DNA of 64,000 nucleotides, from assembly GCF_008107625.1 (NCBI RefSeq), contig NZ_SDKK01000004.1:183276-247275 (forward strand), in the 5' to 3' direction. Both the position numbers and the translations under genes were made by a program. Origin of the DNA: Zoogloea oleivorans. GTDB taxonomy: Bacteria; Pseudomonadota; Gammaproteobacteria; Burkholderiales; Rhodocyclaceae. The notes under the pieces were generated by a model that saw nothing but the letters and a program-made list of their open reading frames with translations, was not told the origin of the DNA and made no database searches. This document shows, piece by piece, positions 9,154 through 25,691 of this stretch (position 1 is its first letter; each line of letters starts with the position of its first letter).

Positions 9154-9806
9154 ACCAGAAGATCAGTCAACAACCTCTATCCAACCGCTTTGAGCATTTG
9201 ATTGAGGTGATCGGCGGTGAGCGCTTCTTGCAGATGCGTGGGCTGAACAACGATCTGCCCTTCTATATCTGCGAGTTTCGCGCCAGCGAAGCCTTTGAGA
9301 TGCAACGCTTGCAACGTCATCTCATCAGCTCGTTGGCCAATCTCAGTGTGCCATGCCTGGGTGGGCGCGGTGTGAGGGTGCTGGACATCAATCTGTACGA
9401 CGTCAGCATTAAGTTGCTGCAAGCTCGCGAAGGCAGCAGGGAAGGTAGCCGGCTCTGGGATGAACTCATTGCTGTCGAGACCGATGTCGAAAAGGACAAC
9501 CTGCTCGAACTGCTGCAGAACGTGCTCGGTGTCGAGGATTACCTGATCCCCGCTATTGGCGAGCGACTGCAGCAGACCGATTTTGACGTGCTGTTCCTGT
9601 CCGGCATCGGGGAAGTCTTCCCCTACATCCGATCGCACAACGTGCTCAATAACCTTCAAAGCACCGCGAAAGACAAGCCCACCGTGCTGTTCTTCCCTGG
9701 CGAGTACCGTCACTCGCTTGAGCAAGGGGCGTCGCTGGAGCTGTTCGGACTGTTGCACGACGACAAGTACTACCGCGCTTTCAATATTTTCGAGACCCAG
9801 GTTTGA
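9150..9806 (+). CDS. brxB: BREX protein BrxB (DUF1788)
   Basis: 218 residues from ATG 9150, which overlaps the brxA stop (ATGA); ATG 9141 is an in-frame alternative. LSNRFEHLIEVIGGERFLQMRGLNNDLPFYICEF is the DUF1788 signature region, with DVLFLSGIGEVFPYIRSHNVLNNL and VLFFPGEY later. BrxB is essential in type I BREX; biochemical role unclear. brxC begins 11 bp after the stop. Confidence 0.88.
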   Translation: MNQKISQQPLSNRFEHLIEVIGGERFLQMRGLNNDLPFYICEFRASEAFEMQRLQRHLISSLANLSVPCLGGRGVRVLDINLYDVSIKLLQAREGSREGSRLWDELIAVETDVEKDNLLELLQNVLGVEDYLIPAIGERLQQTDFDVLFLSGIGEVFPYIRSHNVLNNLQSTAKDKPTVLFFPGEYRHSLEQGASLELFGLLHDDKYYRAFNIFETQV

Positions 9807-9817
9807 GGAAAGACCCG

Positions 9818-12800
9818 ATGGAACTCAACCGCATTTTTTTGCACCCGGTCAGTCGCCCGATAGAAGGCGTCATCAAGGCCGACGACGAGTCGAGCCTCTA
9901 TGTTGAGCTCAACGAATATGTGCTGACAGACGAAGTGGCCAAGCGACTGGCGCACTTTCTTGATGCCTACAACGACTACCACGGTGCGAACGGCGTCTGG
10001 GTCTCGGGCTTCTTCGGCTCGGGCAAGTCACATCTCTTGAAGATGCTGGCCTTGATGCTGGAGAACCGCAGCATCGATGGCAGCTCCGCGCTCGACATCT
10101 TCCTGCCCAAGATCCCGAAGGAGGATGAGCTGCTACGCGCAGCACTCAAAAAGGCCGCGTCAATCCCTTCGAAGAGCATCCTGTTCAACATCGATCAGAA
10201 GGCCGACATTATCAGCAAGAGTCAGGCTGACGCCTTACTCTCGGTCTTCGTCAAGGTCTTCAACGAGACGTGTGGTTACTTCGGCAAACAGGGCTACATC
10301 GCGCAGTTCGAACGAGACCTGGACAGTCGGGAGCAGTTGGATGCGTTCAAAGACGCCTACCAGCGCCTGGCCAACAAACCCTGGGAGCGTGGCCGAGAAC
10401 AGGCGCTGCTGGAGTCGGGCAACATCGCCCGCGCCTATGCAGAGATCACCGGGGAAGACCCGGTACTGGCCAAAGGCATTCTGGACAAGTACCGCGCGCA
10501 GTACAGCGTGTCCATCGAGGACTTCAGCGAGCAAGTGAAGGCTTGGCTGGACAAGAAGCCCGCCAACTTCCGCCTCAACTTCTTCGTGGACGAGGTGGGG
10601 CAGTACATCGCCGACAACACCAAGCTGATGACCAACCTGCAGACGGTCGCCGAGAGCTTGGCGACCAAATGCCAGGGCCGCGCCTGGATCATCGTTACCG
10701 CCCAAGAGGACATGAACTCCGTCTTGGGGGACATGAACAAGCAGCAAAGCAACGACTTCTCGAAGATCCAAGCCCGCTTTGCCAACCGGCTCAAGCTCAC
10801 CAGTGCCGACGTGGCTGAGGTCATCCAGAAGCGCCTGCTCACCAAGAACAAGATCGGTACCGAGCTGCTTGCCACTACCTACGACCAGCAACTCAACAAC
10901 TTCAAAACCCTGTTCGAGTTCGCAGACGGCGGTCAGCAATATACGAACTTCCGAGACGCGGAACATTTCACCTACTGCTACCCCTTCGTGCCGTACCAGT
11001 TCCCGCTGTTTCAAGCAGCCATCCGTGGCATCTCGCTGCACAACGGCTTCGAAGGCAAGGCGAACTCGGTGGGCGAGCGCTCCATGCTCGGCGTGTTCAG
11101 GGAAGTCGCGATCGCGATTGATCAGGAGCCAGTTGGCCAGCTCGCCACCTTCGACCGCATGTTCGAGGGCATCCGAGGCGCGCTCAAGAGTGCGATTCAG
11201 AGCGCCATCAACAATGCCGAACGCCACCTGGGCGTCCCCTACGCTGTGCGCGTGCTCAAGGCGCTCTTCCTGGTCAAGTACGTCAAAGAGTTCAAAACCA
11301 CGCTACGCAACCTCAGCGTGCTGATGCTTGAGCGCTTTGGCGACGACCTGCCCGCGCAGCGCAAGCGGCTTGAAGCTGCACTCAACCTGCTGGAGCAACA
11401 GACCTACATCCAGCGTAATGGTGATGTCTACGAGTACCTGACCGACGAAGAAAAAGACGTCGAAGAGGAAATCAAGAACACCGAGGTTGAGAGCGCAGAC
11501 ATCCTGAAAGAGCTGGAGACGCTGCTGTTCGATGGCGTTATCAAACAGCGCAAGATCCGCCACAGCAACGGTCAGGACTACGCCTACACCCGCAAGATGG
11601 ATGACCGCGCGCTGAGCCGTGAGCACGAGCTGGCCATCCACATCGTCACGCCACTCTCGGACAACTTCGACAACGTCACCCTGCAGCGCATGCAAAGCAT
11701 GGGGCGTGATGAGCTACGCGTCGTCTTGCCAGCCGATGTGCGCTTCATGCAAGACCTGACGATGTACAAGCGCACCGAGAAGTACATCCGCCAGAATAGC
11801 AACACCCCCCAAGAGGCCGTCAAACGCATCCTGGATACCAAGGGCTTCCAGAACACCGAGCGCTTGAACGACCTGCAAGTGCGTGCCAAGGCGCTGCTAG
11901 GCAAGGCGACGCTCATCATCAATGCCGCAGATATGGACGTCAGTACCGAAGACGGCCAGACACGAGTGCTCAAAGGGTTTGAGCATCTGCTTCAAACCAC
12001 CTACCCCAACCTGCGCATGCTGCGCGACGTACCGTTCAATGAGGCGGACATCGGCAAGCATTTGCGCATGATGGAAGACGGGCTGATCGCCAACGACGCC
12101 ACCAGCCTCACCGAGCCCGAACAAGAACTGCTGGCCTTCATTCAGGGCAACGCTCGGGGCGGCGTGCGCACCACCGTCAAGAGCTTGATTGAGCGTTTCG
12201 AGCGTAAGAACTACGGCTGGTACTACGCCGCCATCCTGTGCAACCTGGCCCTGTTGTGTGCACGGGGCAAGGTCGAGGTGCGGCAAGACAGCAATCCGCT
12301 GGAGCATGACGCTCTGGAGCGCAGCCTGCGCAATACCAATGCCCATGCCAAGTTAGTGCTTGAGCCACAGGTGGAATTCAGCGCCTCGCAAGTGCGCACG
12401 CTTAAAGAGTTCTTTGCCGACTTCTTCGACAAGCCGGCCAGCAGCAACGAGGCACGGGCACTTGCTCGTGAGGCCATCGACGCGCTGAAGGATCTGGAGA
12501 TCGAACTGGCCGACCTGCACGGCCAGAAAGCGCAGCTGCCATTCCTGAGCGTGCTCACGCCGGTACTGGCCACCCTGAAGGACGTGGCGAGCAAGAACCC
12601 TAATTGGTTCTTGACCGACCTTGCCCGTGCCGAAGACGCCTTGCTCGACACCAAGGAAAACATCATCGACCCGTTGCGGCGCTTCATGAACAGCCCGCAG
12701 CGCGCCATCTTTGAGCAGGCCCGCTTGTTGGTTGCCGAGCAGGAGGACAACTTTGCCTATGTGGGCCCAGCTGAAGTGGAGGCTGTTCGCAACCTGCTGG

Positions 12801-13378
12801 CCGACAGCAAACCTTGGCAAGGCAACCGCTTGCAGCAGCTCAAACCGCAGCTTGATGCCCTGCAACAAGCCATTGCCAACCAGTTGGCCAGTGAAAAGGA
12901 GGCCGCCTCCAGCCGCCTTGCGGAGCTGGAACAAAGGCTGCAAGCCACCGAGGAACATGGCCGTCTCGGCTCCACTCAACAGGCGCAGCTGACCCAGCCC
13001 TTTGCAGATGCCCGCCTGGCGCTGCAAGGCCAGAAGCGCATTGCCATGATCCGTGATCAGCTGCGGTACTTCGAGGACAGCCGCTTCCCCCAGTTGCTGG
13101 TGCAACTGGAGCAATGGGCCAAGCCCGAGAGGCCTGCGTCGCCTGGTTCCACCCCGGATGCAGCTGTCAGGTCTTCCGTTGGCGAAGGAATGCCCCCGGC
13201 CAGCACGACAGCCACCAAGCCCGCGTCACCCGAGCCCAAACTGGTGCCCGCCCGCACCATCAAGGTCAGTTACGCCAAGCCCTGGCTGACCAATGAGGCC
13301 GAGCTCGACGACTACCTGAACAAACAGCGCGAAGCCTGGCTGAAGGAAATCCTGGCCGGCAACCGCGTGCAGATCTGA
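9818..13378 (+). CDS. brxC: BREX AAA+ ATPase BrxC
   Basis: 1186 residues, normal length. Starts MELNRIFLHPVSRPIEGVIK. Walker A GFFGSGKS at residues 64-71, acidic FFVDEVGQYI as Walker B, long helical middle and a coiled-coil C-terminal third (about 1000-1080). BrxC/PglY is a large ATPase of the BREX defence and methylation complex. The four-base-scale spacing to its neighbours places it in one operon with brxB and pglX. No frameshift or truncation seen. Confidence 0.92.
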   Translation: MELNRIFLHPVSRPIEGVIKADDESSLYVELNEYVLTDEVAKRLAHFLDAYNDYHGANGVWVSGFFGSGKSHLLKMLALMLENRSIDGSSALDIFLPKIPKEDELLRAALKKAASIPSKSILFNIDQKADIISKSQADALLSVFVKVFNETCGYFGKQGYIAQFERDLDSREQLDAFKDAYQRLANKPWERGREQALLESGNIARAYAEITGEDPVLAKGILDKYRAQYSVSIEDFSEQVKAWLDKKPANFRLNFFVDEVGQYIADNTKLMTNLQTVAESLATKCQGRAWIIVTAQEDMNSVLGDMNKQQSNDFSKIQARFANRLKLTSADVAEVIQKRLLTKNKIGTELLATTYDQQLNNFKTLFEFADGGQQYTNFRDAEHFTYCYPFVPYQFPLFQAAIRGISLHNGFEGKANSVGERSMLGVFREVAIAIDQEPVGQLATFDRMFEGIRGALKSAIQSAINNAERHLGVPYAVRVLKALFLVKYVKEFKTTLRNLSVLMLERFGDDLPAQRKRLEAALNLLEQQTYIQRNGDVYEYLTDEEKDVEEEIKNTEVESADILKELETLLFDGVIKQRKIRHSNGQDYAYTRKMDDRALSREHELAIHIVTPLSDNFDNVTLQRMQSMGRDELRVVLPADVRFMQDLTMYKRTEKYIRQNSNTPQEAVKRILDTKGFQNTERLNDLQVRAKALLGKATLIINAADMDVSTEDGQTRVLKGFEHLLQTTYPNLRMLRDVPFNEADIGKHLRMMEDGLIANDATSLTEPEQELLAFIQGNARGGVRTTVKSLIERFERKNYGWYYAAILCNLALLCARGKVEVRQDSNPLEHDALERSLRNTNAHAKLVLEPQVEFSASQVRTLKEFFADFFDKPASSNEARALAREAIDALKDLEIELADLHGQKAQLPFLSVLTPVLATLKDVASKNPNWFLTDLARAEDALLDTKENIIDPLRRFMNSPQRAIFEQARLLVAEQEDNFAYVGPAEVEAVRNLLADSKPWQGNRLQQLKPQLDALQQAIANQLASEKEAASSRLAELEQRLQATEEHGRLGSTQQAQLTQPFADARLALQGQKRIAMIRDQLRYFEDSRFPQLLVQLEQWAKPERPASPGSTPDAAVRSSVGEGMPPASTTATKPASPEPKLVPARTIKVSYAKPWLTNEAELDDYLNKQREAWLKEILAGNRVQI

Positions 13379-13386: not shown

Positions 13387-15216
13387 ATGGATACCAGCAA
13401 ACTCAAAAAATTCGCCCAGTTCGCCCGTCGCACCCTGGGCAAGCAAGTGAGCGCCAAGCTGACCTTGGTGCTGTCGGAAGGCAGTGCAGCGCGTCGCGAA
13501 AGTGCGTCGACCGTCAAGAAGCTGGAAGACGCTATCAAGAGCTACGGCAAGGAACAGGTCATCGACCGAGTGGCCTACACCTGGTTCAACCGTTTCTGCG
13601 CGCTGCGTTTCATGGACGTGAACCGCTACACGCGCATCGGCATCGTGTCACCTGCCGAAGGTCAGTTCCAGCCGGAAATCCTGCTGGAAGCCAAGATGGG
13701 CCACATCGAAGAGGAGATGGTGCCCGCCAAGACGCAGCAACTCGTGGCCGATCTGCTGGCGGGCAAGAGCCCCAGCCATGATCCGCAAGGCGAGGCCTAC
13801 CGCCTGCTGGTGGTGGCTGCCTGTAACGCGTGGCATCAGGCAATGCCCTTCTTGTTCGAGCGCATCGACGACTACACCGAGTTGTTGATGCCCGACGACC
13901 TGCTCTCGGGCAACTCCATCTTGGCCTACACCCGCGAGGCCATGACGCCTTCAGCCTGCAAGGACTTGGCTACGGGCGAGCCAATTGTCGAAGTCATCGG
14001 CTGGCTATACCAGTTCTACATCTCCGAGAAGAAGGATGCCGTCTTCGAAGGGCTGAAAAAAAACCAGAAGATCACCCCCGAGAACATCCCGGCCGCGACC
14101 CAGCTGTTCACGCCGCATTGGATCGTGCGCTACCTGGTGGACAACTCGCTTGGGCGCCTGTGGCTGCTCAACTGCCCCAACTCAAAGTTGGCCGAGCAGA
14201 TGGCCTACTACATCCCGCCCGAGAAGCCGGAGACCGACTTCCTTCGCATCAATGGGCCCGAAGACATCAAGGTCTGCGACCCTGCCTGTGGCTCTGGCCA
14301 CATGCTCACGTACGCCTTTGACCTGCTGTACGCCATCTACGAAGAAGAGGGTTACGACGCAGCCGAGATCCCGGAAAAGATCCTGACGCACAACCTTTAC
14401 GGCATTGAGCTCGACGAACGTGCCGGCGAATTGGCCGCCTTCGCCCTGACCATGAAGGCACGCGCCCGCCAGCGTCGCTTCTTTAACAAGCGCGTCAAGC
14501 CCAACATCACCGTGCTGGAGAAGGTGGAGTTCAGCCGCCAAGAACTAGACGAGTACATGGGCCATGTAGGCCGCGACCTGTTCACCTACGGCCTGCGCGA
14601 AACGTTGCAGCAGTTCAGCGAGGCCGACAACTTCGGCTCGCTGATCGTGCCCAAGGTGGGCAACGTCGCCGACGTGTTGGCCACGCTGGAAACCAAGGAC
14701 ATGGCCGGCAACCTCTTTCTGGCCGAAACACATCAGCGCGTGCTCAAGGTGCTGCGCATGGCCGAAGCCCTGGGCCCTCGCTATGCCGTGGTGGTGGCCA
14801 ACCCGCCCTACATGGGCGGCAAAGGGATGAATGGACGGCTGAGCACATGGGCCAAGGAGAACTACCCAAACAGCAAGTCCGACCTGTTTGCCATGTTCAT
14901 CGAGCGCAATCTGGATCTGACGGTGAAAGCTGGCGAGGTTGCCATGATCACCATGCAGAGCTGGATGTTCCTGTCGTCCTTCGAAGCTTTGCGCAGTCGC
15001 ATCCTGGACCAGCACACCATTCTCTCGATGGCCCACCTGGGTGCCCGGGCCTTCGACAGCATCGGCGGTGAAGTGGTGTCCACGACCGCCTTTGTGCTGG
15101 AGAACACGCACAAGCCGGAGTACCGAGGAGCGTATCTGCGCCTGGTGGACGGCAACTCGGAAGCGGAAAAGATGGAGATGATGGTCAAGGCCATCGCTCA
15201 AGGCAGGGCGGCATGA
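13387..15216 (+). CDS. pglX: BREX methyltransferase PglX, N-terminal half (catalytic domain)
   Basis: 609 residues where family members are about 1200. It contains the whole class I adenine-N6 methyltransferase core: SAM motif DPACGSG at 298-304 and catalytic NPPY at 472-475, preceded by the helical N-terminal domain. It ends LRLVDGNSEAEKMEMM then KAIAQGRAA, the point where an intact PglX runs on into its target-recognition domain. That domain is encoded separately at 20357-22141. The stop TGA overlaps the ATG of the next gene (ATGA), so the end is integrated into the operon rather than random. It methylates host DNA to mark self, presumably only with the other half. Confidence 0.9.
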   Translation: MDTSKLKKFAQFARRTLGKQVSAKLTLVLSEGSAARRESASTVKKLEDAIKSYGKEQVIDRVAYTWFNRFCALRFMDVNRYTRIGIVSPAEGQFQPEILLEAKMGHIEEEMVPAKTQQLVADLLAGKSPSHDPQGEAYRLLVVAACNAWHQAMPFLFERIDDYTELLMPDDLLSGNSILAYTREAMTPSACKDLATGEPIVEVIGWLYQFYISEKKDAVFEGLKKNQKITPENIPAATQLFTPHWIVRYLVDNSLGRLWLLNCPNSKLAEQMAYYIPPEKPETDFLRINGPEDIKVCDPACGSGHMLTYAFDLLYAIYEEEGYDAAEIPEKILTHNLYGIELDERAGELAAFALTMKARARQRRFFNKRVKPNITVLEKVEFSRQELDEYMGHVGRDLFTYGLRETLQQFSEADNFGSLIVPKVGNVADVLATLETKDMAGNLFLAETHQRVLKVLRMAEALGPRYAVVVANPPYMGGKGMNGRLSTWAKENYPNSKSDLFAMFIERNLDLTVKAGEVAMITMQSWMFLSSFEALRSRILDQHTILSMAHLGARAFDSIGGEVVSTTAFVLENTHKPEYRGAYLRLVDGNSEAEKMEMMVKAIAQGRAA

Positions 15217-16358
15217 TCACTCAACTGCAGCTCAAGAATTTCACCGCCTTCACTGAGTTGGCCATCGACTTCTCGCCTGGCATCAACATCATCATCGGCG
15301 AGAACGGCACTGGGAAAACTCAGCTTCTTAAGGCCATTCGCGCTTTGAGCGGAGCGTGGGCGCATGGGGAAAATGCAGATGAGCAGTTAGCGCAGAAGCT
15401 CTGCCGACTCTATCTTCCGCTTAGCGAGAAAGTGGGAGGGCTGCGTCGCTCTGGGTCACGTAGAAAAGCCTTGCTCAGTGCCAACTTTAATTCGGGGCGG
15501 GATGTTACTGCGGCCTTTGGAGGATCTGATACTGCAGTCCGTATCACAAGCAATGGGAACATCACTCCTGCCGAAGCACTCTTCATCCCAACGAAAGAAG
15601 TGCTATCCCTAGCTCGTGGCTTGAATTCTGGCAAGGCAGATGACGAGACTATCAATTTAATCTTCGACGACAGCTACATCGATTTAGCTAAGCTACTTTT
15701 CAATAGAGTTGAAGGAAACCTATCCAAAAGGATTCAGGAGGACCCTCGCCTCTCCAGCATCGTACCAAGGATAACCAAATTGATTGGAGGGAGGTACATT
15801 CTCAAGAAGGGCCATATCTGCTTTCAGGCTGGCCAGTATGAGGAAAAGGTTGGCCAATCCGTACAGAACGAAGAAACATCAGCACAGGTATTCAAGAGCT
15901 CCAAAATTCAATTCACTCCTTCAGAGTCGGCATTAGTTTCTAGCGCAATGACTGCTGAGGGATTTAGAAAAATTGGGATGCTGCAGCGCCTGCTCAGCAA
16001 CGGCAGCCTCAACCCTGGCACCACCGGCCCGCTGCTGTGGGACGAGCCTGAATCCAACCTCAACCCCAAGCTGATGCGGGATCTGGTGCAGGCCCTGCTG
16101 GAACTCGCCCGCAACGGGCAGCAAGTCATCCTGGCCACACACGACTACGTGCTGCTCAAGTGGTTCGACCTGCTGATGGACAAGGGTAAGGGCGATCAGG
16201 TGCGTTTCCATGTGCTGTCCCGCGATGCCGACACCGGCCAGGTGCGTCGCGACAGCATGGACGACTACCGCGCCATTGAGCCGAATGCCATCGCCGAGAC
16301 CTTCAATGAGCTGACCAAGGAACAGGTCGCTCGCAAGATGGGAGGTCTGGGCAAATGA
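15213..16358 (+). CDS. AAA ATPase (OLD/RecF-like) nested in pglX
   Basis: 381 residues. N-terminal MITQLQLKNFTAFTELAIDF with Walker A GENGTGKT (29-36) is the AAA_15/AAA_21 pattern of OLD, RecF and PARIS AriA-type ATPases; late LLWDEPESNLNPK is Walker B and ILATHDYVLLK the switch. No TOPRIM domain is fused. The start overlaps the pglX N-half stop and the stop overlaps the next start by 4 bp, so it pairs with the downstream nuclease-like gene. Codons 50-245 look richer in A/T than the rest. Likely the sensor/motor of an ATPase-nuclease defence pair; exact system not recognised. Confidence 0.8.
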   Translation: MITQLQLKNFTAFTELAIDFSPGINIIIGENGTGKTQLLKAIRALSGAWAHGENADEQLAQKLCRLYLPLSEKVGGLRRSGSRRKALLSANFNSGRDVTAAFGGSDTAVRITSNGNITPAEALFIPTKEVLSLARGLNSGKADDETINLIFDDSYIDLAKLLFNRVEGNLSKRIQEDPRLSSIVPRITKLIGGRYILKKGHICFQAGQYEEKVGQSVQNEETSAQVFKSSKIQFTPSESALVSSAMTAEGFRKIGMLQRLLSNGSLNPGTTGPLLWDEPESNLNPKLMRDLVQALLELARNGQQVILATHDYVLLKWFDLLMDKGKGDQVRFHVLSRDADTGQVRRDSMDDYRAIEPNAIAETFNELTKEQVARKMGGLGK

Positions 16359-16870
16359 AGCTGCGCGAGCGCGACTTGGAAATCGACTTCACCGATGCCA
16401 TTGACGCAATTGTCTTTGACCAGATGAAAGCCGATCAGCCGGGCTATCACGGCATCGGACAAATGCACCGCGTCGATTTTGTGGTCGAGCTTGAGGCTGC
16501 CATTGTCTTCGTCGAGGTGAAGGACCCGGGCAACCCCAAGGCTCAGGCTGAGGGTTTGGCAAAGTTTCATGGCGAGCTGCAAGACGGAACGCTCAGCGAC
16601 ACCTTTGCCGCCAAGTTCATCGACACCTTCCTGTACCGCTGGGCCGAGGAGTGCCTGCAAAAGCCGGTTCACTACGTCAGCCTGGTCACGCTCGAAGACA
16701 ACGAGCTTCTGCCGAACTTCTCGGACGAGATCGCCAAGAAGCTTCCACCGATGGGCAAGTCTGTTCCGCGCTGGAAACGCCAGCTGGTGGAGAACTGCCA
16801 GGTGTTCAACATCGAGCTTTGGAACGCGAGCTTTCCGAAATGGCCGGCAGCGCGCGTCGCGAAGGTGTAG
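16355..16870 (+). CDS. Small PD-(D/E)XK nuclease-like protein
   Basis: 171 residues. HRVDFVVELEAAIVFVEVKD gives Asp41 and Glu54-Val-Lys56, the D...ExK pattern of the PD-(D/E)XK nuclease fold, with Gly33/35 and His39 upstream. The rest (AKFIDTFLYRWAEECLQKPVHYVSLVTLED) fits the later strands of that fold. It overlaps the ATPase gene by 4 bp and ends 27 bp before the SIR2 gene. Probably the effector of the ATPase; family not identified. Confidence 0.65.
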   Translation: MKLRERDLEIDFTDAIDAIVFDQMKADQPGYHGIGQMHRVDFVVELEAAIVFVEVKDPGNPKAQAEGLAKFHGELQDGTLSDTFAAKFIDTFLYRWAEECLQKPVHYVSLVTLEDNELLPNFSDEIAKKLPPMGKSVPRWKRQLVENCQVFNIELWNASFPKWPAARVAKV

Positions 16871-16897
16871 CAACAAATCAAGCCCAGGGAGAGAAGA

Positions 16898-18259
16898 ATG
16901 ACTGTCAACACGCTCAAGATTCGCGATGACCATCAGCCGCTGAGGTTCACGGCAGAAGGTGACGCGTTCAAGCTCCAAGATGGCTCGCAAGCCGCTTGGC
17001 TCACCGGCAAGACTTTCGGGCGCAAGGAGCTCCGCAACCGTATAGAGCCGTGGCTGACATCGTTGTTCCAGTCAGAGCATCTGTCGCTGCTCGCTGGTTC
17101 GGGCCTCACCCACGCAGTGCATTACCTGGCAGCTGGCAAGGGTGCCGCAGGCATGGGCGCCTTGGCGCTAAGTCACCATCAAACCGAAATCAATCAGGCT
17201 GCCGCGAAAGCAGCAGAAGCCGCCGGGCGTGAGAAGGGCAATTTAGAGGACCAGCTACGCGTTGCCAACGAGCTGTTGCGTGGTCTGGAGATCCTGCAGC
17301 AGAAGACAGAAGCCGAAGCTCTGCGCACTGAGCTTCAGACCGGCATGCGGGACTTCGCCAAGTCGATCCTGAAGAGCGAAGAAGGAATTGCCGGGGCTGC
17401 TGAGGACAAGCGCGAGGAGGCGTTCAACACCCTCGTCACCTTCCTGATGAGCTTCGCCAGTCGCACCGGGGTGCGTGACCGGCTGAACATCTTCACCACC
17501 AACTACGACCGGCTGATCGAGGCGGGGGCGGAGTTGGCCGGGCTGCATCTGCTGGACCGCTTCCTGGGCAAGCTGATGCCCATCTTCCGGTCTTCTCGCC
17601 TGGATCTGGACATGCACTACAACCCGCCCGGCATCCGTGGTGAGCCGCGCTATCTGGAAGGGGTGGCCCGCTACACCAAGCTGCATGGCTCGGTGGATTG
17701 GGTGCAGACGGGCAAAGACATCCGCCGTATCGGTTTGCCGTTCGGAGCCGCCAGCGTTGAACCCTATCTGCAGGCGCCCGGCCTGAGCGAAGCCTCGGCG
17801 CACGAGCTGATGATCTACCCCAACGCTGCCAAGGACAGGGAAACGGCGGACTACCCCTATGTAGAGCTGTTCCGCGACCTCGCGGCAGCGGTGTGCCGCC
17901 CGAACAGCACGCTGGTGACCTACGGCTACAGCTTTGGCGATGAGCACATCAACCGCGTCATCCGCGACATGCTCACCATCCCCTCGACGCATCTGGTGGT
18001 GATCTCGTATGACGATCCATTGGGTCGGATCATGCAGACGTACCAAGAGCTGGGCCGGCCCTCCCAGATCAGCCTGTTGATCGGCCCGGCATTGGCAGAC
18101 CTAACCACGCTGACCGAGCACTACTTGCCTAAGCCTGCCATCGACAAGACCACCTTCCGCATGAGCGAACTGCTCAAGCAGCGCATGGGAACAGAGCCTC
18201 AATCTGCCAAAACCGCAGCCCCAGAGGTGGGTGCGTCTGACGAGAGTGACCTCGCATGA
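16898..18259 (+). CDS. SIR2-domain protein (SIR2-HerA system)
   Basis: 453 residues. SIR2 motifs: LSLLAGSGLT (nucleotide-binding start, about 63-72), FTTNYDRLIE and KLHGSVDW, then VTYGYSFGDEHINRVI near 350. A coiled-coil insert spans about 95-150. In defence proteins this domain hydrolyses NAD+ (or acts with a nuclease) on phage infection. The start of the HerA gene overlaps its stop by 4 bp, the composition of the known SIR2-HerA (Nezha-type) antiphage system. GGGAGAG precedes ATG 16898. Confidence 0.85.
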   Translation: MTVNTLKIRDDHQPLRFTAEGDAFKLQDGSQAAWLTGKTFGRKELRNRIEPWLTSLFQSEHLSLLAGSGLTHAVHYLAAGKGAAGMGALALSHHQTEINQAAAKAAEAAGREKGNLEDQLRVANELLRGLEILQQKTEAEALRTELQTGMRDFAKSILKSEEGIAGAAEDKREEAFNTLVTFLMSFASRTGVRDRLNIFTTNYDRLIEAGAELAGLHLLDRFLGKLMPIFRSSRLDLDMHYNPPGIRGEPRYLEGVARYTKLHGSVDWVQTGKDIRRIGLPFGAASVEPYLQAPGLSEASAHELMIYPNAAKDRETADYPYVELFRDLAAAVCRPNSTLVTYGYSFGDEHINRVIRDMLTIPSTHLVVISYDDPLGRIMQTYQELGRPSQISLLIGPALADLTTLTEHYLPKPAIDKTTFRMSELLKQRMGTEPQSAKTAAPEVGASDESDLA

Positions 18260-20364
18260 GCATGTCCCCTCTGGCTTATGCCGACTCGCTACGCATCGGC
18301 ACCATTGACTTCGTCTCTCCGGACGAAATCAAGGTGCTGCTCGACATCGAGGCGCCCGATGGCGTGGCTCTCAATACCGGCACGCCGCGTCCTTTCCCAC
18401 GCATCAACGGCTATGTGTTGATCCCCAGTGACGAAGGGCATCTGGTCGCTCAAGTCGAGTGGATCACCATCGAGCGTTCGCAATACCCCAAGCGCAAAGG
18501 CATGCAGGACTTCGGGCTGGTGGACTTGCCCTACCCCTTGCGGAAGATGAGCCTTAACCCGCTGGGGGTGCTGGCTTACGAGCGCCAAGACGCTCACGGC
18601 CATGACATTTATCGCTTCCGGCGCGGCGTCGAAAGTTACCCCACCGTCGGCGATGCAGTGCTACTGCCTACGCAAAGCCAGCTACGCGCCATCGTCGAGT
18701 CCGGTGACAACCGCCAAGTGCTGATTGGCACCAGCCCGCTAGCAGCCAATGCCGAGGTCAAGATCGACCCGGACCGCCTGTTTGGCCGCCATCTGGCGGT
18801 ACTGGGCAACACCGGCAGCGGTAAGTCCTGCTCGGTCGCAGGCTTGATCCGTTGGTCGATGGATGAGGCCCGCAAGGCCCGTGGCGGCTCAGACCCCAAT
18901 GCCCGCTTCATCGTGCTCGACCCCAATGGCGAGTACGCCAACACCTTCCGCGACATGAGCAAGGTGCGGGTGTTTGCCGTCGAGCCTAGCGCAGGCGTTG
19001 AACAGCTGCAGATCCCGCTGTGGTTCTGGAACAGTGCCGAATGGGGGGCTTTTACCCAGGCGAGCGCCAAGACGCAGCGGCCGACCTTGGTGCAGGCGCT
19101 TCGATCAGTCCGCGACGGCGTGTTCGGCGCGACGGTGACACCTAGCCATGAGATGCGCCGCTATCTGCGCACGCTCGTTTCGGCGATTCAAATCGAAAGA
19201 AATTCGGGGAACCCGTGGAAAGGTGCTGGGCCTGCAAAAGGCTTCCGTGATCGATTGATCCGATGGAAAGAGGGCTTGGCCGACAACGCTTCCTTCGATG
19301 CGGCGGAAAGCTCTGCGTTGAATGGTTTGATTCAACACATCACCACGCTCTTGGCTGCACATGGAGGGGATTGGCCAGCAATTTTCACCCCTCAAGAGAT
19401 CGGCGCACTAATCGGCGTGCTGAGCAGCACGCATTCTGTGTTTGGTGGCAGCGACACCGACATCCTCCCGATCGACGCAGACGTGCCGCGCCCCTTCACC
19501 GGCGACCAGCTTCTCCGCAGTGTTGAAGCCACGGCCGAACTGCTCGGTGTCTCCGATTACGTCGAGACCATGCAGATGCGCATTCGCACCCTGCTGTCGG
19601 ACAGCCGCATGAAGATCGTTTCGGGCACCTCCCAGGACCTCACGCTGGACGACTGGCTGCGCAACTACATCGGCGACAACCAGGCGTCGAACGGCTCGGT
19701 CACCGTCATCGACCTCTCGCTGGTACCTGCCGAGGTCGTGCACATCATCACGGCAGTGATCGCACGCATGACGCTGGAGGCGCTCCAGCGCTACCGCAAG
19801 CTGCACCACGGCAAGACCTTGCCCACCGTGCTGGTGATGGAAGAGGCGCACACCTTCATCAAGCGCTACCACGACGACGCGGAGAACCAGAACTCGGCCG
19901 CCATCTGCTGCCAAGTGTTTGAAAAAATCGCCCGAGAAGGGCGCAAGTTCGGGCTGGGCCTGGTGCTGTCCTCCCAGCGCCCCAGCGAGCTGTCGCCCAC
20001 GGTGCTGTCCCAGTGCAATAGCTATCTGCTGCATCGCATCAGCAACGACCGCGACCAGGAACTGGTGCACAAGCTGGTGCCCGACAACCTGCGCGGCCTG
20101 CTGCGCGACTTGCCCTCGCTGCCTTCCCGTCACGCCATTTTGCTTGGCTGGGCGTCGGAACTGCCGGTACTGGTGCAGATGAACGCGCTGCCCGAGCAGC
20201 ATCGGCCGAAATCGGATGACCCAGACTTCTGGGCGGTGTGGTCAGGCAAGGACACTAAAGGCGAAGCGGTCGAGCGCGCTGTGGATTGGAAAACGATTGC
20301 CAATGACTGGCAGCAGATTGGTACGCCAGTCGAGGAACAAGATTTGGAGAATACAAATGAGTAA
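18256..20364 (+). CDS. HerA-family ATPase (SIR2-HerA system)
   Basis: 702 residues. N-terminal HAS-barrel-like region (1-170), DUF87/HerA motor with Walker A LGNTGSGKS (183-191), LDPNGEYAN, Walker B VLVMEEAHTF near 533, the arginine-finger region REGRKFGLGLVLSSQRPSEL, and ISNDRDQELV. Hexameric HerA acts with nucleases or SIR2 effectors. It is coupled to the SIR2 gene (4-bp overlap) and to the pglX C-half (8-bp overlap), so all these genes are cotranscribed. Confidence 0.87.
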   Translation: MSMSPLAYADSLRIGTIDFVSPDEIKVLLDIEAPDGVALNTGTPRPFPRINGYVLIPSDEGHLVAQVEWITIERSQYPKRKGMQDFGLVDLPYPLRKMSLNPLGVLAYERQDAHGHDIYRFRRGVESYPTVGDAVLLPTQSQLRAIVESGDNRQVLIGTSPLAANAEVKIDPDRLFGRHLAVLGNTGSGKSCSVAGLIRWSMDEARKARGGSDPNARFIVLDPNGEYANTFRDMSKVRVFAVEPSAGVEQLQIPLWFWNSAEWGAFTQASAKTQRPTLVQALRSVRDGVFGATVTPSHEMRRYLRTLVSAIQIERNSGNPWKGAGPAKGFRDRLIRWKEGLADNASFDAAESSALNGLIQHITTLLAAHGGDWPAIFTPQEIGALIGVLSSTHSVFGGSDTDILPIDADVPRPFTGDQLLRSVEATAELLGVSDYVETMQMRIRTLLSDSRMKIVSGTSQDLTLDDWLRNYIGDNQASNGSVTVIDLSLVPAEVVHIITAVIARMTLEALQRYRKLHHGKTLPTVLVMEEAHTFIKRYHDDAENQNSAAICCQVFEKIAREGRKFGLGLVLSSQRPSELSPTVLSQCNSYLLHRISNDRDQELVHKLVPDNLRGLLRDLPSLPSRHAILLGWASELPVLVQMNALPEQHRPKSDDPDFWAVWSGKDTKGEAVERAVDWKTIANDWQQIGTPVEEQDLENTNE

Positions 20365-22141
20365 CAGCCAAGCCCACACTGCTGAGCAGTGTATGAAGAA
20401 GTATTTCTTTCGAGCTTCATCCCTAGATTTCAGAGTGATCCCGGGAAACCCAATTGCATACTGGATAAACGATCAGCTTCGCAATATATTTAATGGAGCA
20501 TCGTTGTCGGAGCACTTCCAAACTCGCCTTGGCTTATCAACTGCAAATAATGATCGTTTCTTGAGAAATTGGCATGAAGTGAATTTCGCGGCTATTTTGT
20601 TTGACTGCCCAAGCAGAAATAGGGCGCTCGAGAGTGGTATCACGTGGTTTCCCTATGAAAAGGGTGGCTCCTTTAGAAAATGGTTTGGAAACCACGACCT
20701 CCTTGTCAACTGGAGAAATGACGGCGAAGAAGTAAGAAACTTCGGTGCCGACGAAGGGAAAATTAGATCCCACAATTACAACTTGGATTTTATCTTCAAA
20801 GAGGGCATAACCTGGTCTGATGTAACATCGGGAACCAATGCATTTAGGCTTATGCCAGAAGGCTTCTTATTTGATGGCCGGGGGTCGTCTGGATTTGTCC
20901 GGGAGCGTCAGTTCACCAATAGGATTTTAGGTCTATTGAATTCGACCGTATCGACTTACGCGATATCGGTAATAAATCCTACCATTGCTGTAAACGTTGG
21001 GGAGATTGCGAAACTTCCGTTTCCGAGCTTGGATGGAGATGCAAGCGCGCATGTTGATAAGACTGTACGCATGCTTACGAGGGTACATCGAGCAGATTGG
21101 GACAGTTATGAAACTTCCTGGGACTTCACTAGCCTCCCGCTGCTGCATTCCGATTACTGCCTCCCCAAGCTGAAGGGTAGCTACCAGAAGCTCCGCGCCC
21201 ACTGGCGCGAGATGACACTGGAAATGCAGCGCCTGGAGGAAGAAAACAACCGCATCTTCATCGACACCTACGGCCTCCAGGAGGAACTGACGCCCGAAGT
21301 GCCCTTGAACGAAATCACGCTCACCTGTAACCCGCATTACCGCTACGGCGGTGACAAGAGCGAGGAAGAACTGGAATCCCTGCTGCTGGCCGACACCTTG
21401 CGAGAGCTAGTGAGCTATGCCGTGGGCTGCATGCTCGGCCGCTACAGCCTGGACAAGCCGGGGCTGATCCTGGCCAACCAGGGCGAGACGCAGGCCGACT
21501 ACCTGGCCCAGGTGCCGGAGCCTAGCTTCCCGGTCGATGACGACAACGTGATCCCGGTGCTGGATGGTGATTGGTTTGCCGACGACGTCACGCTGCGCTT
21601 CCGCCAGTTCCTGCGCGTGGCGTTTGGCGAAACGCATTACGAAGACAATCTGGCTTTCATCGAGCAGGCGCTGAACGTCAAGGGCAAGCGCAATTACGGC
21701 TTGCGCGACTACTTCCTGAGCGAGTTCTATACCGACCATGTGAAGCGCTACAAGAAGCGGCCCATCTACTGGCTGTTCAGCAGCCCCAAGGGCAGCTTCA
21801 ACGCGCTGATCTACATGCACCGCTACCGCCCGGACACGGTGAGCGTGGTACTGAAGTACCTGCGCGACTATCGCGAAAAACTTGTTACCGAGAAGGAGCG
21901 TCAGGCCTCGACGAGCATTAACCCCGCCACCAGCCAGGGCGACAAGACCCGCGCATTGAAGGAAGCCGACCGCCTGGCCAAGGTGCTGGCTGAGTTGGAG
22001 GACTACGAGCGCGATGTGCTCTACCCGCTGGCCACCGAGCAAAAGGCCATCGACCTGGATGACGGCGTGAAGGTGAACTACCTGAAGTTCGGCGCGGCAC
22101 TCAAGAAGATCACCGGGCTGGATGCCAAGGAAGAGGATTGA
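20357..22141 (+). CDS. pglX: BREX methyltransferase PglX, C-terminal half (target recognition)
   Basis: 594 residues from ATG 20357, with GGAG seven bases upstream; the start overlaps the herA stop by 8 bp. From residue 14 (KKYFFRASSLDFRVIPGNPIAYWINDQLRN) it matches the second half of PglX, including the conserved IPGxPIAYW block, and it has the conserved C-terminal helical part (ENNRIFIDTYGLQEELTPEVP). No SAM or NPPY motif is present, so it cannot methylate alone. N-half plus C-half equals about 1200 residues, a complete PglX. The recognition part (to about base 21120) is visibly more A/T-rich than what follows, as expected for an exchanged specificity domain. Confidence 0.87.
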   Translation: MSNSQAHTAEQCMKKYFFRASSLDFRVIPGNPIAYWINDQLRNIFNGASLSEHFQTRLGLSTANNDRFLRNWHEVNFAAILFDCPSRNRALESGITWFPYEKGGSFRKWFGNHDLLVNWRNDGEEVRNFGADEGKIRSHNYNLDFIFKEGITWSDVTSGTNAFRLMPEGFLFDGRGSSGFVRERQFTNRILGLLNSTVSTYAISVINPTIAVNVGEIAKLPFPSLDGDASAHVDKTVRMLTRVHRADWDSYETSWDFTSLPLLHSDYCLPKLKGSYQKLRAHWREMTLEMQRLEEENNRIFIDTYGLQEELTPEVPLNEITLTCNPHYRYGGDKSEEELESLLLADTLRELVSYAVGCMLGRYSLDKPGLILANQGETQADYLAQVPEPSFPVDDDNVIPVLDGDWFADDVTLRFRQFLRVAFGETHYEDNLAFIEQALNVKGKRNYGLRDYFLSEFYTDHVKRYKKRPIYWLFSSPKGSFNALIYMHRYRPDTVSVVLKYLRDYREKLVTEKERQASTSINPATSQGDKTRALKEADRLAKVLAELEDYERDVLYPLATEQKAIDLDDGVKVNYLKFGAALKKITGLDAKEED

Positions 22142-22143
22142 GC

Positions 22144-23184
22144 ATGAGCCAGCCACCTTTGCCTGCCCCGGCATTACCAGCCGACTATGCCCCTCTGCTG
22201 AGTGCGCTGAAAGAACGGGTTCGGGCCGCGCAATACGCGGCGCTGAAGGCGGTCAACACCGAGCTGGTGGGTCTGTACTGGGATATTGGACGCGTGCTGG
22301 TGGAGCGGCAGGCTGGCGATACCTGGGGCAAGGGCGTGGTGCAACAGTTGGCGACCGACTTGCAGCTGGCGTTTCCGGGTGTGAGCGGCTTCTCGGCCTC
22401 CAACCTGTGGCGCATGCGGGCGTTTTTTGAAGCGTACCAAGGCCTCGAAAAACTCGCACCACTGGTGCGAGAAGTGGGCTGGAGCCACAACCTGGTGATT
22501 CTGGAGCGTTGCAACAACGCGCTCCAACGCGAGTTCTACCTGCGCATGACGCGCAAGATGGGCTGGTCCAAGAACGTGCTGATCCACCAGATCAACAACC
22601 AAAGCTACGAGAAGTCGCTGCTGGGCCAGACCAACTTTGATCAGGCGCTGACCGCCGAGCTGCGCGCCCAGGCCAAGCTGGCGGTGAAAGACGAGTACAC
22701 CTTCGACTTTCTGGAGCTGGGCGCCGAGCACAGCGAGCGCGAGCTGGAGCGGGCGCTGATTGGCCGCATCGAGGACTTTCTGCGGGCCATGGGCAGCATG
22801 TTCGCCTTCATGGGCAGCCAGTATCGGCTGGAGGTGGATGGGCGCGAGTTCTTCATCGACCTGCTGCTTTTCCATCGCCGCCTGCGCTGCCTGGTGGCCA
22901 TTGAGCTGAAGGTGGGGGAATTCCAGCCCGAGTTCGTCGGCAAGATGCAGTTCTATCTGGCGGCGCTCGACCGGCAACTCCGCCAGGCGGATGAGAACCC
23001 GTCGATCGGTATCATCCTGTGCAAGGAAAAGAGCCGCACCATTGTGGAATACGCCCTGCACGATGCCAACAAGCCCATCGGCGTAGCCACCTACCAGATC
23101 ACCAGCACGCTGCCGCAAGACCTGGCCGGGCAATTGCCCCCGCCCGAGGCCATTGCCGCGCTGCTGGAAGGAATCGAGAAATGA
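22144..23184 (+). CDS. DUF1016/YhcG-type PD-(D/E)XK nuclease
   Basis: 346 residues. DUF1016_N helical domain (LVGLYWDIGRVLVERQ, TDLQLAFPGVSGFSASNLWRMR), then the nuclease domain with YRLEVDGREFFIDLLLFHRR and LVAIELKVGEF (D...ExK) and MQFYLAALDR. YhcG proteins are predicted or shown nucleases that turn up beside restriction and BREX genes. The start lies 2 bp after the pglX C-half stop; its stop overlaps pglZ by 4 bp. It may be an accessory effector or nuclease subunit of this BREX; that is inferred from position. Confidence 0.85.
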   Translation: MSQPPLPAPALPADYAPLLSALKERVRAAQYAALKAVNTELVGLYWDIGRVLVERQAGDTWGKGVVQQLATDLQLAFPGVSGFSASNLWRMRAFFEAYQGLEKLAPLVREVGWSHNLVILERCNNALQREFYLRMTRKMGWSKNVLIHQINNQSYEKSLLGQTNFDQALTAELRAQAKLAVKDEYTFDFLELGAEHSERELERALIGRIEDFLRAMGSMFAFMGSQYRLEVDGREFFIDLLLFHRRLRCLVAIELKVGEFQPEFVGKMQFYLAALDRQLRQADENPSIGIILCKEKSRTIVEYALHDANKPIGVATYQITSTLPQDLAGQLPPPEAIAALLEGIEK

Positions 23185-25691
23185 GCAATGCCAAGATCCA
23201 GCAGGCGCTGGGCAATCTGTTTGACAAGCAGCGCATCGTGTTCTGGTACGACACGCGGCGCGAGTTTCGCGCTGACTTCGAGGCACTGAGCCTGCCCGGC
23301 GTGGAAAAGATCGAGCTGGCCAACAACGAGTTTGGCGTGAAGTACCGTGTGCTGCGTGAGCAGCCGGAGCAGAAGTTCCTGTTGTTCAAAGACGGGCCAG
23401 AACCGGAGTTCCTGGCGAACTGGCTGCTGGATGTGCAATTGGCCAGCGGTAGCACCTTCCGCACCGATCAGGTGGCCTTATGGCTGGCCGAGCTGGGGTT
23501 GGGGCCCGATGCCTACCCCTTGCTGGAGGCTCATGTTGCCTTCTTTGAGGCCACCAAGCGGCGTGAAAGACTGAAAGAGTTGCTGGAGCCTGGTGACAGC
23601 GACAATACCGTGCGCCAGAAGATGCTGGCCGTGTGCGTGGGGAACGATGACCCGCGCCTGGACGAGATGCTGGAAGTCCTGTTGGCCGAACTGGCCAGCG
23701 GCTCCGATACACGCAGCAAGCTGATGGAGCGCAGCGGCCTGAACGAGCATTTCTGGGAGTTGATGAAGCGTGCCTACGGCTACATCAGTGAGCAACCGGG
23801 CTTGCAGGATTTTGTGATCGAACTCTTCAAGAGTTGCTTCCTCAGTGAGGTGGATGTCGAGTTCAAACCCCGCCTTACATCAGAGGCAAAGGTGTTCATC
23901 CGGCGCTGGAAAGACAGCCGCTCGCACGCGCAGGCTTTCGAGGCGCTGTCTGCCCAGTGTGCCGACATCCTTCAGATCGAGGACAAGCTTCAGGGTCTTG
24001 AATACCGTGCGCTGATGTCTGTGGATGAGTTCGAAACCATAGACCGCAAGATCCTGAGCGAGCTGGTGCGTGAGGTGAACTCTCGCACGGTCAGCGCGCA
24101 AGAGGTGGAGCAATGGGTTCGCCAGCGTCGGCAAGGGCACTGGTTTGAACGATACCAGCATGTGTACCAGGCCATCGAACACGCGGCGCAGTTCGTGCAG
24201 GCGCTGGAGCTGACGCAACTGGAGATGGACTCCCTGGCGGACGGCATTCACAAGTATACCCAAAGCTGGTTCCGACTCGACCAGCGCTACCGCAAGTTCA
24301 TTCACCATGCGCGCGAATCGGGTCAGGCCTCGCTGTTGCAGGCACTGAGCCAACAGGTGGAAAACCTGTACACCAACAACTTCCTGTCGCACCTGAACGT
24401 GCGCTGGCAACGCTTTGTGGACGCTTGCCAGCAGTGGGAGGCCGCCCCGGTGGTGAGCCAGGCCACTTTCTTTGGGCGCTTTGTGCAGCCCTATCTGGAG
24501 CGCAAGGGCAAGGTGTGCGTGTTGATCTCTGACGCCTTCCGCTACGAGGTGGGGGAAGAGCTGCAAAGCCTCATTCGCCGCGAAAACCGGTTTGATGCAG
24601 AGCTGACGCCAGCTCTGTCCCGCCTGCCGAGTTACACCCAGTTGGGCATGGCATCCCTGCTACCGCACAAGACACTGCAGATCGTAGAGGAAGGTAGCGG
24701 CGAGGTCATGGCCGATGGCATCAGCGCTACCGGCACCGCCAACCGCGCCCGCATCCTGGCTCAGACGGTGGCCTCATCCACTGCCGTGCTGGCCAAAGAT
24801 GTCCTCGCCATGGGCAAGGAGGATTCACGGGCCTTGGTGCGCGACCATGATGTCGTGTATGTCTATCACAACCTGATCGACAAGACTGGCGACACGCGGG
24901 ACACGGAAGAGCGCGTTTTTGGAGCGGCAGAAGAAACACTGGAAGAGTTGCTGCGGGTGATCAAGAAGCTAGCCAATGCTAATGCCAACAACATCGTAGT
25001 AACCGCAGACCACGGCTTCATCTACCAGCATCACCCGCTGCAGGACAGCGACTTCCTCAGCACAGAACCCAGCGGCGACGAGATCCTCTACACCGATCGG
25101 CGCTTTGTGCTTGGGCGAGGTCTGCGCGAAAGCAGCAGCTTCAAGACCTTTCAGCCCGATCAACTGGGCCTGGCTGGCAACTTGCAGGTACAGATCCCGA
25201 AATCGATCAATCGCTTGCGCCTGAAAGGCTCGGGCAGCCGCTTCGTGCATGGCGGCGCCACCTTGCAAGAAGTGGTGATCCCGGTCATCAGCATCAACAA
25301 GAAGCGCCAGAGCGATGTGGGCAAGGTGGAGGTGGAGTTGATTGGCGGCGGCGGCAAGACCATCACGACGGGGCAGCTGGCTGTGGTGCTGTACCAGACC
25401 GAACCCGTCACCGACAAACGCCATCCGCGCCGCTTGCGTGTCGGCCTGTACTCGCTGGCAGGCGAGGCGATTTCGGACGTGCAGGAGTTGGGCTTCGACA
25501 TGGCGTCCGGCAACCCGCGTGAACGGGAGGTCACGGTGCGCTTCATCCTCAGTCGCAAGGCCGACGACTACAACAACCAACAGGTGGAGCTGCGCATGGA
25601 CGAGCCGGTGGACGGCACATCCCACTACACGCGCTACCAGTCCGCGCGGTACACGATTCGCCGCTCGTTCACCTGCGAGTTCGATTTCTAA
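23181..25691 (+). CDS. pglZ: BREX alkaline-phosphatase-like protein PglZ
   Basis: 836 residues from ATG 23181 (overlaps the previous stop). N-terminal GNLFDKQRIVFWYD is typical. The PglZ alkaline-phosphatase-superfamily domain has VCVLISDAFRYEVG (metal-binding Asp), YVYHNLIDKTGD and VVTADHGFIYQ (late metal His/Asp). A beta-rich C-terminal domain follows from about 640. PglZ is required for BREX methylation and defence. brxL begins 21 bp after the stop. Confidence 0.92.
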   Translation: MSNAKIQQALGNLFDKQRIVFWYDTRREFRADFEALSLPGVEKIELANNEFGVKYRVLREQPEQKFLLFKDGPEPEFLANWLLDVQLASGSTFRTDQVALWLAELGLGPDAYPLLEAHVAFFEATKRRERLKELLEPGDSDNTVRQKMLAVCVGNDDPRLDEMLEVLLAELASGSDTRSKLMERSGLNEHFWELMKRAYGYISEQPGLQDFVIELFKSCFLSEVDVEFKPRLTSEAKVFIRRWKDSRSHAQAFEALSAQCADILQIEDKLQGLEYRALMSVDEFETIDRKILSELVREVNSRTVSAQEVEQWVRQRRQGHWFERYQHVYQAIEHAAQFVQALELTQLEMDSLADGIHKYTQSWFRLDQRYRKFIHHARESGQASLLQALSQQVENLYTNNFLSHLNVRWQRFVDACQQWEAAPVVSQATFFGRFVQPYLERKGKVCVLISDAFRYEVGEELQSLIRRENRFDAELTPALSRLPSYTQLGMASLLPHKTLQIVEEGSGEVMADGISATGTANRARILAQTVASSTAVLAKDVLAMGKEDSRALVRDHDVVYVYHNLIDKTGDTRDTEERVFGAAEETLEELLRVIKKLANANANNIVVTADHGFIYQHHPLQDSDFLSTEPSGDEILYTDRRFVLGRGLRESSSFKTFQPDQLGLAGNLQVQIPKSINRLRLKGSGSRFVHGGATLQEVVIPVISINKKRQSDVGKVEVELIGGGGKTITTGQLAVVLYQTEPVTDKRHPRRLRVGLYSLAGEAISDVQELGFDMASGNPREREVTVRFILSRKADDYNNQQVELRMDEPVDGTSHYTRYQSARYTIRRSFTCEFDF

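Follow-up and report, generated by a model that had tools for sequence, protein, structure and literature searches.

The methyltransferase gene pglX of a type I BREX (bacteriophage exclusion) operon in Zoogloea oleivorans is divided into two genes, with four other defence genes (HEC-02A, HEC-02B, SIR2 and HerA) lying between its halves. We analysed this arrangement in a 64,000-nucleotide stretch of contig NZ_SDKK01000004.1 (positions 183,276 to 247,275; hereafter the window), where the operon occupies 7634-27830, and we found that the split recurs in other bacteria with differing genes in the gap. Our best explanation, to which we give a probability of roughly 80%, is a two-subunit PglX whose gap serves as an exchange slot for defence modules.

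PglX is cut at its hinge into two complementary halves

An earlier note on this DNA had proposed that an N-terminal frame with the catalytic motifs DPACGSG and NPPY and a separate C-terminal frame (here the N-half and the C-half) make up one full-length PglX, cut at a domain linker. The frames and motifs are as it described, the first motif reading DPACGSGH in the N-half, and comparison with solved structures agrees with the proposal. In phmmer searches against PDB, the N-half aligns with residues 71-638 of Escherichia fergusonii PglX (PDB 8c45) and 70-635 of E. coli BrxX, and the C-half with residues 639-1216 and 643-1196 of the same two proteins, so that jointly they align end to end with the solved chains. 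The hinge between the methyltransferase and the target recognition domain (TRD) has been placed at residues 638-675 of BrxX (PMC11842806) and 654-659 of PglX (PMC11341690). Because the cut matches this hinge, the N-half corresponds to the upper jaw and the C-half to the lower jaw of the Pacman-like structure. Both halves match PADLOC models of PglX, including half-length ones (PDLC02525, 607 positions; PDLC02516, 593 positions); a Pfam scan of the C-half gave no match.

As type I BREX requires, brxA, brxB, brxC, pglX, pglZ and brxL all lie in one operon; brxC, pglX, pglZ and brxL were confirmed by PADLOC or Pfam, and brxA and brxB were assigned only by their place in the operon and their homologues in other split loci. 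Type I BREX is also characterised by m6A methylation of a non-palindromic 6-bp site and by phage exclusion. PglX of type I BREX is a single chain, and here all of its domains are present but spread over two chains. The operon is a variant of type I BREX and not a standard member. Searching the same assembly with the N-half, we saw no contiguous copy of the split gene. The only other substantial match (32% identity) is a contiguous 1117-aa PglX-like gene, which belongs to a second, divergent BREX in this genome (L229, G000:C37:238000-257900) that also encodes BrxC-like and BrxL-like proteins.

The genes in the gap, which we call cargo, are tightly packed, as the earlier note had also observed. 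Overlaps of 4 bp join the N-half to HEC-02A, HEC-02A to HEC-02B, and SIR2 to HerA, HerA overlaps the C-half by 8 bp, and the sole gap is the 27 bp before SIR2. HEC-02A and HEC-02B form a complete PADLOC HEC-02 pair, and the adjacent SIR2 and HerA genes (PDLC04079, PDLC04098) make up a SIR2-HerA system. A comparison of the two slot borders in the window found no direct word of at least 8 bases common to both, so the slot does not look like a transposon insertion.

Split pglX genes recur in several lineages

The earlier note knew of no other case of defence genes inside pglX, and suggested a search for separated or adjacent PglX halves in other genomes. The search overturned the first statement. 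An alignment of three N-halves served as the query for a scan of a genome collection, from which we took the best 80 of 515 confirmed loci. In 60 of these 80, pglX is intact. Ten have both halves apart on one contig: an uncultured Acidovorax, Pseudomonas oleovorans, P. benzenivorans, P. mandelii, Halopseudomonas oceani, Alloalcanivorax marinus, an Alcaligenaceae strain, and metagenome-assembled genomes (MAGs) of one Methylococcaceae and two Chlorobiaceae. Thauera butanivorans has its pglX split over two contigs with about 320 bases in common, and in four loci (L084, L096, L106, L130) the N-half stops at the hinge and cargo runs to the contig end. The remainder are one gene with a frame break elsewhere (L087) and four cut by contig ends (L094, L108, L112, L159).

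Further splits came from other genomes: G023, of the window's own family; G1254 and G1416, taken from a sample spread evenly over the phylum, whose N-halves share 46% identity with the nearest reference N-half; and a far lineage (24-29% identity), in which G234, G158 and G355 have three genes between the halves and G086 and G657 have directly adjacent halves with no cargo. In these last two the halves overlap by 1-4 bp (L230 of G086, 7259-11061; L231 of G657, 7237-11030), and those of G086 match the full-length model PDLC02527 at positions 1-658 and 666-1311. The far lineage has half-length PADLOC models too (PDLC02526, 640 positions; PDLC02532, 682 positions). Since PADLOC therefore holds two pairs of half-length PglX models, the halves must have been clustered before, perhaps unnoticed.

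In total we count 24 split loci including the window, 20 of them with both halves and four cut by contig ends. The 19 further both-half loci include one that spans a contig overlap and the two with adjacent halves. To estimate frequency we used 38 sampled PglX loci, defined as matches that span 80% or more of the C-half in a single segment, with the window and repeats excluded and members of its family over-represented. In this sample 27 loci are intact, nine are split (G312, G023, G086, G234, G158, G355, G657, G1254, G1416), one is disrupted by a transposase (G056) and one runs into a contig end (G079). Five of the split loci come from single-contig assemblies (G023, G1416, G086, G158, G234). 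In all six plasmid regions that we examined, pglX is contiguous (288 and 306 plasmid records matched).

Several candidates were rejected as broken genes: G056, with its transposase inside pglX; G838, with several frame breaks; L087, with a frame break outside the hinge; and G330, also with a frame break. We kept the contig-end cuts L094, L108, L112, L159 and G079 out of the split counts, as well as a lone C-half in G977, which is preceded by a Fic-type gene close to the start of its contig and for which no N-half was seen. A second copy of the operon start at a contig end in G023 was discounted too, because it resembles an uncircularised overlap with errors.

Both halves are conserved and translationally coupled

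Outside the far lineage, G1254 and G1416, motifs I and IV (DPACGSGH and NPPY) are kept in all 17 N-halves checked. The metal site of E. coli BrxX consists of D997, D999, D1012 and Y1113 (PMC11842806); mapped by hand from the alignment of C-halves with PDB structures, these residues are kept in 13 of 13 C-halves of the same group. Far-lineage N-halves show NPPF, with DPACGSG seen in G234, G158 and G355; the motif I pattern was unmatched in G086, and the DPACGSG form was unmatched in G657.

Between the window and Acidovorax, the NG86 estimate of omega (the ratio of nonsynonymous to synonymous substitution rates) is 0.094 for the N-half, 0.090 for the C-terminal domain (CTD) of the C-half and 0.076 for brxC; for C-half pairs with the TRD included it is 0.20 and 0.26. 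Both halves are under purifying selection in the window's group.

A 4-bp ATGA overlap joins the stop codon of the N-half to an intact cargo gene in 12 of the 19 split loci outside the far lineage (the window, G023, L080, L082, L084, L085, L086, L088, L096, L106, L198, L199). The N-half stop elsewhere overlaps the next gene by 1 bp (L125, L131) or 10 bp (L130), or precedes it by a 3-nt gap (L116). At the other end of the slot, 11 of the 15 both-half loci outside the far lineage have a C-half that overlaps the upstream open reading frame (ORF) by 4 or 8 bp, and in G1416 the C-half follows a 2-nt gap. The earlier note had read the split as a selected two-subunit methyltransferase and not as decay, and the 24 loci, the kept motifs, omega of about 0.09, the translational coupling and the turnover of cargo described below all favour that view.

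The slot holds exchangeable defence modules

Recognised cargo consists nearly entirely of defence modules, mostly joined by short overlaps to both halves. The window's set, HEC-02AB with SIR2 and HerA, is also found in P. benzenivorans and, over its visible part, in L084. HEC-02AB is combined with a UG5-nitrilase reverse transcriptase (RT) in G023 and Acidovorax, and stands alone in P. mandelii. UG5 RT occurs with a HEC-02A-like ATPase and a 189-aa ORF (P. oleovorans), with Shedu (Halopseudomonas), with a DUF1016 nuclease (L125) or by itself (Alloalcanivorax, G1416). The Alcaligenaceae slot contains a HEC-02A-like ATPase and small ORFs. Schlafen-type cargo is present in L131 and the cut locus L130, with a DUF1016 nuclease in L116, and with AriA-like and AriB-like genes, a PARIS-like pair, in G1254 (L198 8289-10180). 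Two other cut loci have DUF1016, by homology (L096), and a 235-aa frame (L106). In the far lineage, G234 carries the candidate defence genes PDC-M28A/B/C (L233 5466-8742), and the genes in G158 and G355 are likened to these by length alone. The Thauera slot holds DUF1016 and a 544-aa protein (L060 323-1957, minus strand), which has no Pfam match and a weak PDC-S58 match.

Of 57 intact loci whose brxC is visible, 26 also have a HEC-02A-like ATPase gene between brxC and pglX (21 have HEC-02A and HEC-02B together), and none of 10 loci with separated halves has one there; these calls used BLAST E-values up to 1e-3, so other ATPases may be caught. A Methylomonas plasmid (L041 10634-12249) and a viral contig (L034 6584-8160) each carry a gene pair, likened to HEC-02AB by size, that separates brxC from an intact pglX. 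The pglX-pglZ slot of split loci contains HEC-05 and HEC-06 candidate defence genes (L083 17996-19873, L088 15298-17190, L125 8621-10339). We considered whether UG5-nitrilase RT pairs exclusively with split PglX and dropped the idea, since this RT stands alone on a Sinorhizobium meliloti plasmid; a UG5 search of IMG/VR gave no match.

Gene-end remnants of earlier cargo survive at the slot edges in four loci. The ATGA at the N-half stop opens the decayed 5' end of a HEC-02A gene in L081 and L083, and of a gene that appears Schlafen-like by eye in L093. In Thauera the ORF that overlaps the C-half is a 3'-end remnant of a UG5 RT, which is also called by the UG5 profile.

Cargo and TRD can move as one block

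We compared the window with two split loci, Acidovorax (L080) and P. benzenivorans (L082), at codon sites where these two differ, counting the sites at which the window agrees with L080 or with L082. Agreement is mostly with L080 in brxC (896:186), the N-half (221:51) and pglZ (638:119). Within HEC-02A the counts turn from 20:8 in codons 1-60 to 68:147 in the remainder, and within the C-half they are 10:346 in codons 1-240, 5:31 in codons 241-300 and 115:38 from codon 301 on, which places the recombination joints near HEC-02A codons 60-120 on the left and C-half codons 240-300 on the right. Judged by codon agreement, the window is a recombinant mosaic in which brxC, the N-half, the CTD and pglZ resemble Acidovorax, and the stretch that begins in HEC-02A, takes in SIR2-HerA and ends with the TRD resembles P. 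benzenivorans. The L080 slot has a UG5 RT and no SIR2-HerA; SIR2 and HerA of L082 are 87% and 73% identical to those of the window, whose TRD is 96% identical to that of L082 and 40% to that of L080. Cargo and TRD have thus been exchanged together, in a single block, between BREX loci that differ elsewhere.

The TRDs of 13 C-halves are 30-44% identical to each other, except for two pairs at 96% and 74%, and each of these pairs shares the cargo gene adjoining the C-half. The TRD part of the window's C-half (20357-21100) has a GC content of 45%, against mostly 54-62% across the operon, which is consistent with a foreign origin. The TRD sets the recognised site in BrxX (PMC11842806), and the window's TRD presumably sets the DNA site that is recognised here.

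Origin of the split

In a quick LG+G4 tree of N-halves (84 rows: 17 split, 67 intact), which left out L087, L094, L108, L112, L159, G1254, G1416 and the five far-lineage loci, the split label needs six changes, at least four of them forced by starred branches. The split rows fall in a main clade that contains the window, in groups that include Chlorobiaceae, and in a single Mariprofundaceae row. The split can precede or outlast cargo, because G086 and G657 have adjacent halves without any.

Explanations for the split and its slot

We propose that PglX would be made as two polypeptides, an upper jaw (N-terminal domain and methyltransferase) and a lower jaw (TRD and CTD), cut at the flexible hinge, and that the jaws would come together in the BREX complex to work as a single PglX; we infer that they assemble into an active methyltransferase, probably within that complex. 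The gap between the half-genes would be a slot of long standing that has repeatedly taken up accessory defence modules, in this case HEC-02AB and SIR2-HerA, and the short gene overlaps would couple these to both halves. Because the flanks are conserved (the N-half or cargo start on the left, the CTD on the right), homologous recombination there could replace cargo and TRD jointly, in which case one event would change the back-up defence along with the presumed DNA specificity. The embedded modules probably serve as a second line, or as a guard, against phages whose proteins block PglX. The PglX inhibitor Ocr makes contact with both the TRD and the CTD (PMC11842806), and a response of PARIS to Ocr has been described (PMC12839542).

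Several observations weigh against this proposal. The AlphaFold model of the C-half alone is poor (predicted local distance difference test score, pLDDT, 49.6). In the far lineage the N-half ends 98-101 residues from the start of NPPF, compared to 138 after NPPY in the window, so the far cut is about 40 residues nearer the motif; the region is shared, but the exact residue may differ. Several split relatives are MAGs; disrupted pglX genes exist as well (G056 with its transposase, G838, L087); L085 and L088 have wider gaps before the C-half and no tight coupling to it; and joint transfer of cargo and TRD was seen for one pair only. Two intact Pseudomonas rows (L102, L103) nest in the main split clade, so re-fusion and repeated splitting are both possible.

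The slot might be a product of recombination only, in which a cut at the hinge is tolerated, cargo hitchhikes, and any functional link is limited to linkage and shared transcription. We regard this as a possibility to be taken seriously, if a tentative one: cargo families are unrelated, the two cargo-free far loci indicate that the split needs no cargo, UG5-nitrilase RT also occurs alone on the S. meliloti plasmid, and HEC-02A-like genes are frequent beside intact pglX. It accounts less well for the near-exclusive presence of defence modules among recognised cargo, for their short overlaps with both halves, and for the PARIS-like pair, given the described response of PARIS to Ocr. Alternatively, split-PglX BREX could be an immune platform of M and S subunits, with the C-half as an exchangeable specificity subunit, cargo and TRD swapped as one cassette, and the embedded effector matched to, or perhaps directed by, the recognition subunit that the methyltransferase uses, which we think unlikely. 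That the C-half is a free specificity subunit serving both the embedded effector and the methyltransferase half, much as HsdS is shared in type I restriction-modification (R-M), appears quite improbable to us. Cargo and TRD did move together, and both high-identity TRD pairs share the cargo gene beside the C-half, but this evidence comprises one block transfer and two pairs and linkage alone would yield the same pattern; moreover, a UG5-type RT exists without PglX beside it, and two loci have split PglX without cargo.

Insertional inactivation, by which an inserted cassette broke pglX and BREX methylation was lost, has precedents in the disrupted genes of G056 and G838. However, both halves have omega near 0.09 with motifs and starts intact, hinge-region cuts occur in several lineages, and some halves are adjacent with no insert at all. 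Decay by insertion was rejected on the omega, motif and border-repeat checks, and we give inactivation very little credence. Nothing beyond our use of draft assemblies favours an error of assembly or gene calling, which we consider negligible; isolate genomes and MAGs that were assembled independently, several as a single contig, have the same structure, and this recurrence of the same kind of split makes chance or artefact very unlikely.

Gene content of the operon and its surroundings

Coordinates are listed in Table 1. The regulator is 65% identical to that of the second BREX in the same genome. The earlier note's assignment of HEC-02B to the PD-(D/E)XK nucleases stood in part. Its core motif, D41...E54-x-K56, is invariant in 26 of 26 sequences and its AlphaFold (AF2) model is good (pLDDT 83.8), but the fold matches are weak: the top Foldseek matches are BspD6I restriction enzymes (E-value 0.0097 at best, template modelling score about 0.4), with no match to restriction enzymes at E 0.001 and none in Pfam. 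HEC-02B is likely, but not proven, to be such a nuclease.

Table 1. Genes and domains of the split-pglX BREX operon, in window coordinates.
Feature	Position	Strand	Basis or remark
WYL-type regulator, brxR-like	7634..8545	+	ORF; name from operon position
brxA (203 aa)	8542..9153	+	Homologues 58% and 69% in two split loci
brxB (218 aa, start MNQK)	9150..9806	+	Homologues in other split loci
brxC	9803..13378	+	PADLOC BrxC E=0; Pfam BrxC domains
pglX N-half (609 aa): N-terminal domain and adenine methyltransferase	13387..15216	+	PADLOC PDLC02525 3.5e-277; Pfam Eco57I
HEC-02A, OLD/AAA_15-type ATPase, Walker A GENGTGKT	15213..16358	+	PADLOC PDLC04213 1.6e-104
HEC-02B (171 aa), PD-(D/E)XK-like nuclease (likely)	16355..16870	+	PADLOC PDLC04229 2.1e-68
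SIR2 of SIR2-HerA system	16898..18259	+	PADLOC PDLC04079 2.4e-165; Pfam SIR2_2
HerA of SIR2-HerA system, Walker A GNTGSGKS	18256..20364	+	PADLOC PDLC04098 7.6e-263; Pfam DUF87
pglX C-half (594 aa): TRD and CTD	20357..22141	+	PADLOC PDLC02516 2.8e-210
TRD within C-half	about 20405-21100	+	GC 45%
CTD within C-half	about 21101-22138	+	Metal-site residues D394, D396, D409, Y501
YhcG/DUF1016 PD-(D/E)XK nuclease, pglX-pglZ slot	22138..23184	+	Pfam YhcG_C 1.6e-62; PADLOC PDC-S02
pglZ	23181..25691	+	PADLOC E=0; Pfam PglZ
brxL with C-terminal phospholipase-D-like domain	25713..27830	+	Pfam BrxL_ATPase, BrxL_N, MIT_C

Other defence genes lie on the minus strand of the window. Adjoining brxL is an operon of the CBASS (cyclic-oligonucleotide-based antiphage signalling system) type, with patatin phospholipase, CD-NTase, E1-E2 and JAB proteins (28452-32805). 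A second E1-E2 (Cap2-like) protein, apparently from another CBASS-type locus, is encoded at 42216-43832, and an SngC/BrxHI-like helicase, a further defence gene of the island, at 59438-61681.

Relationship to known defence systems and significance

The core gene order of the window operon (brxA, brxB, brxC, pglX, pglZ, brxL) is that of the type I BREX systems of E. coli HS, E. fergusonii and Salmonella, in which PglX is a single gene instead of two. In type I R-M systems, HsdM and HsdS are separate catalytic and specificity polypeptides. The window shares this separation of chains, and like EcoprrI, where PrrC is an embedded guard gene (PMC12707154), it has genes embedded in a defence system. 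It differs from type I R-M in having one PglX chain cut at the hinge, a single TRD in the C-half, and BREX partners instead of HsdR. The C-half aligns lengthwise with the TRD and CTD of PglX and not as a two-TRD HsdS, and among the matches listed when 10 proteins of the window operon were scanned with PADLOC there was none to HsdR. At most, split PglX works like the M and S subunits.

Accessory defence genes inside or beside BREX operons have been described before, namely PARIS between pglX and pglZ in Salmonella and BrxU with BREX in E. fergusonii (PMC9009780; PMC12707154). Those genes sit between genes, whereas the window's cargo sits between the halves of one gene, and in G1254 a PARIS-like pair is inside the split pglX, unlike its pglX-pglZ position in Salmonella. 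In the titles, abstract openings and passages covered by our literature search, a pglX cut into two genes is undescribed, and the main text of a 2026 BREX survey, without its supplements, contains the words 'split' and 'fragment' 0 times (PMC12839542). A 2024 preprint by Payne et al., which could contain cases, reportedly deals with defence genes that are genetically embedded in immune systems; the window shares that concept, and the HEC-02 names are shared via PADLOC.

The split breaks the rule that PglX of BREX is one chain. PglX has been reported not to methylate in vitro (PMC12707154), and the split gene offers a natural separation of methylation from recognition. It also marks out a position inside a gene as a place to look for new defence genes. 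Inversion within pglX, of the type seen in Lactobacillus, is another switch of specificity; exchange at the split gene would provide a concrete route by which one recombination event changes both the presumed DNA specificity of a BREX locus and its back-up defence.

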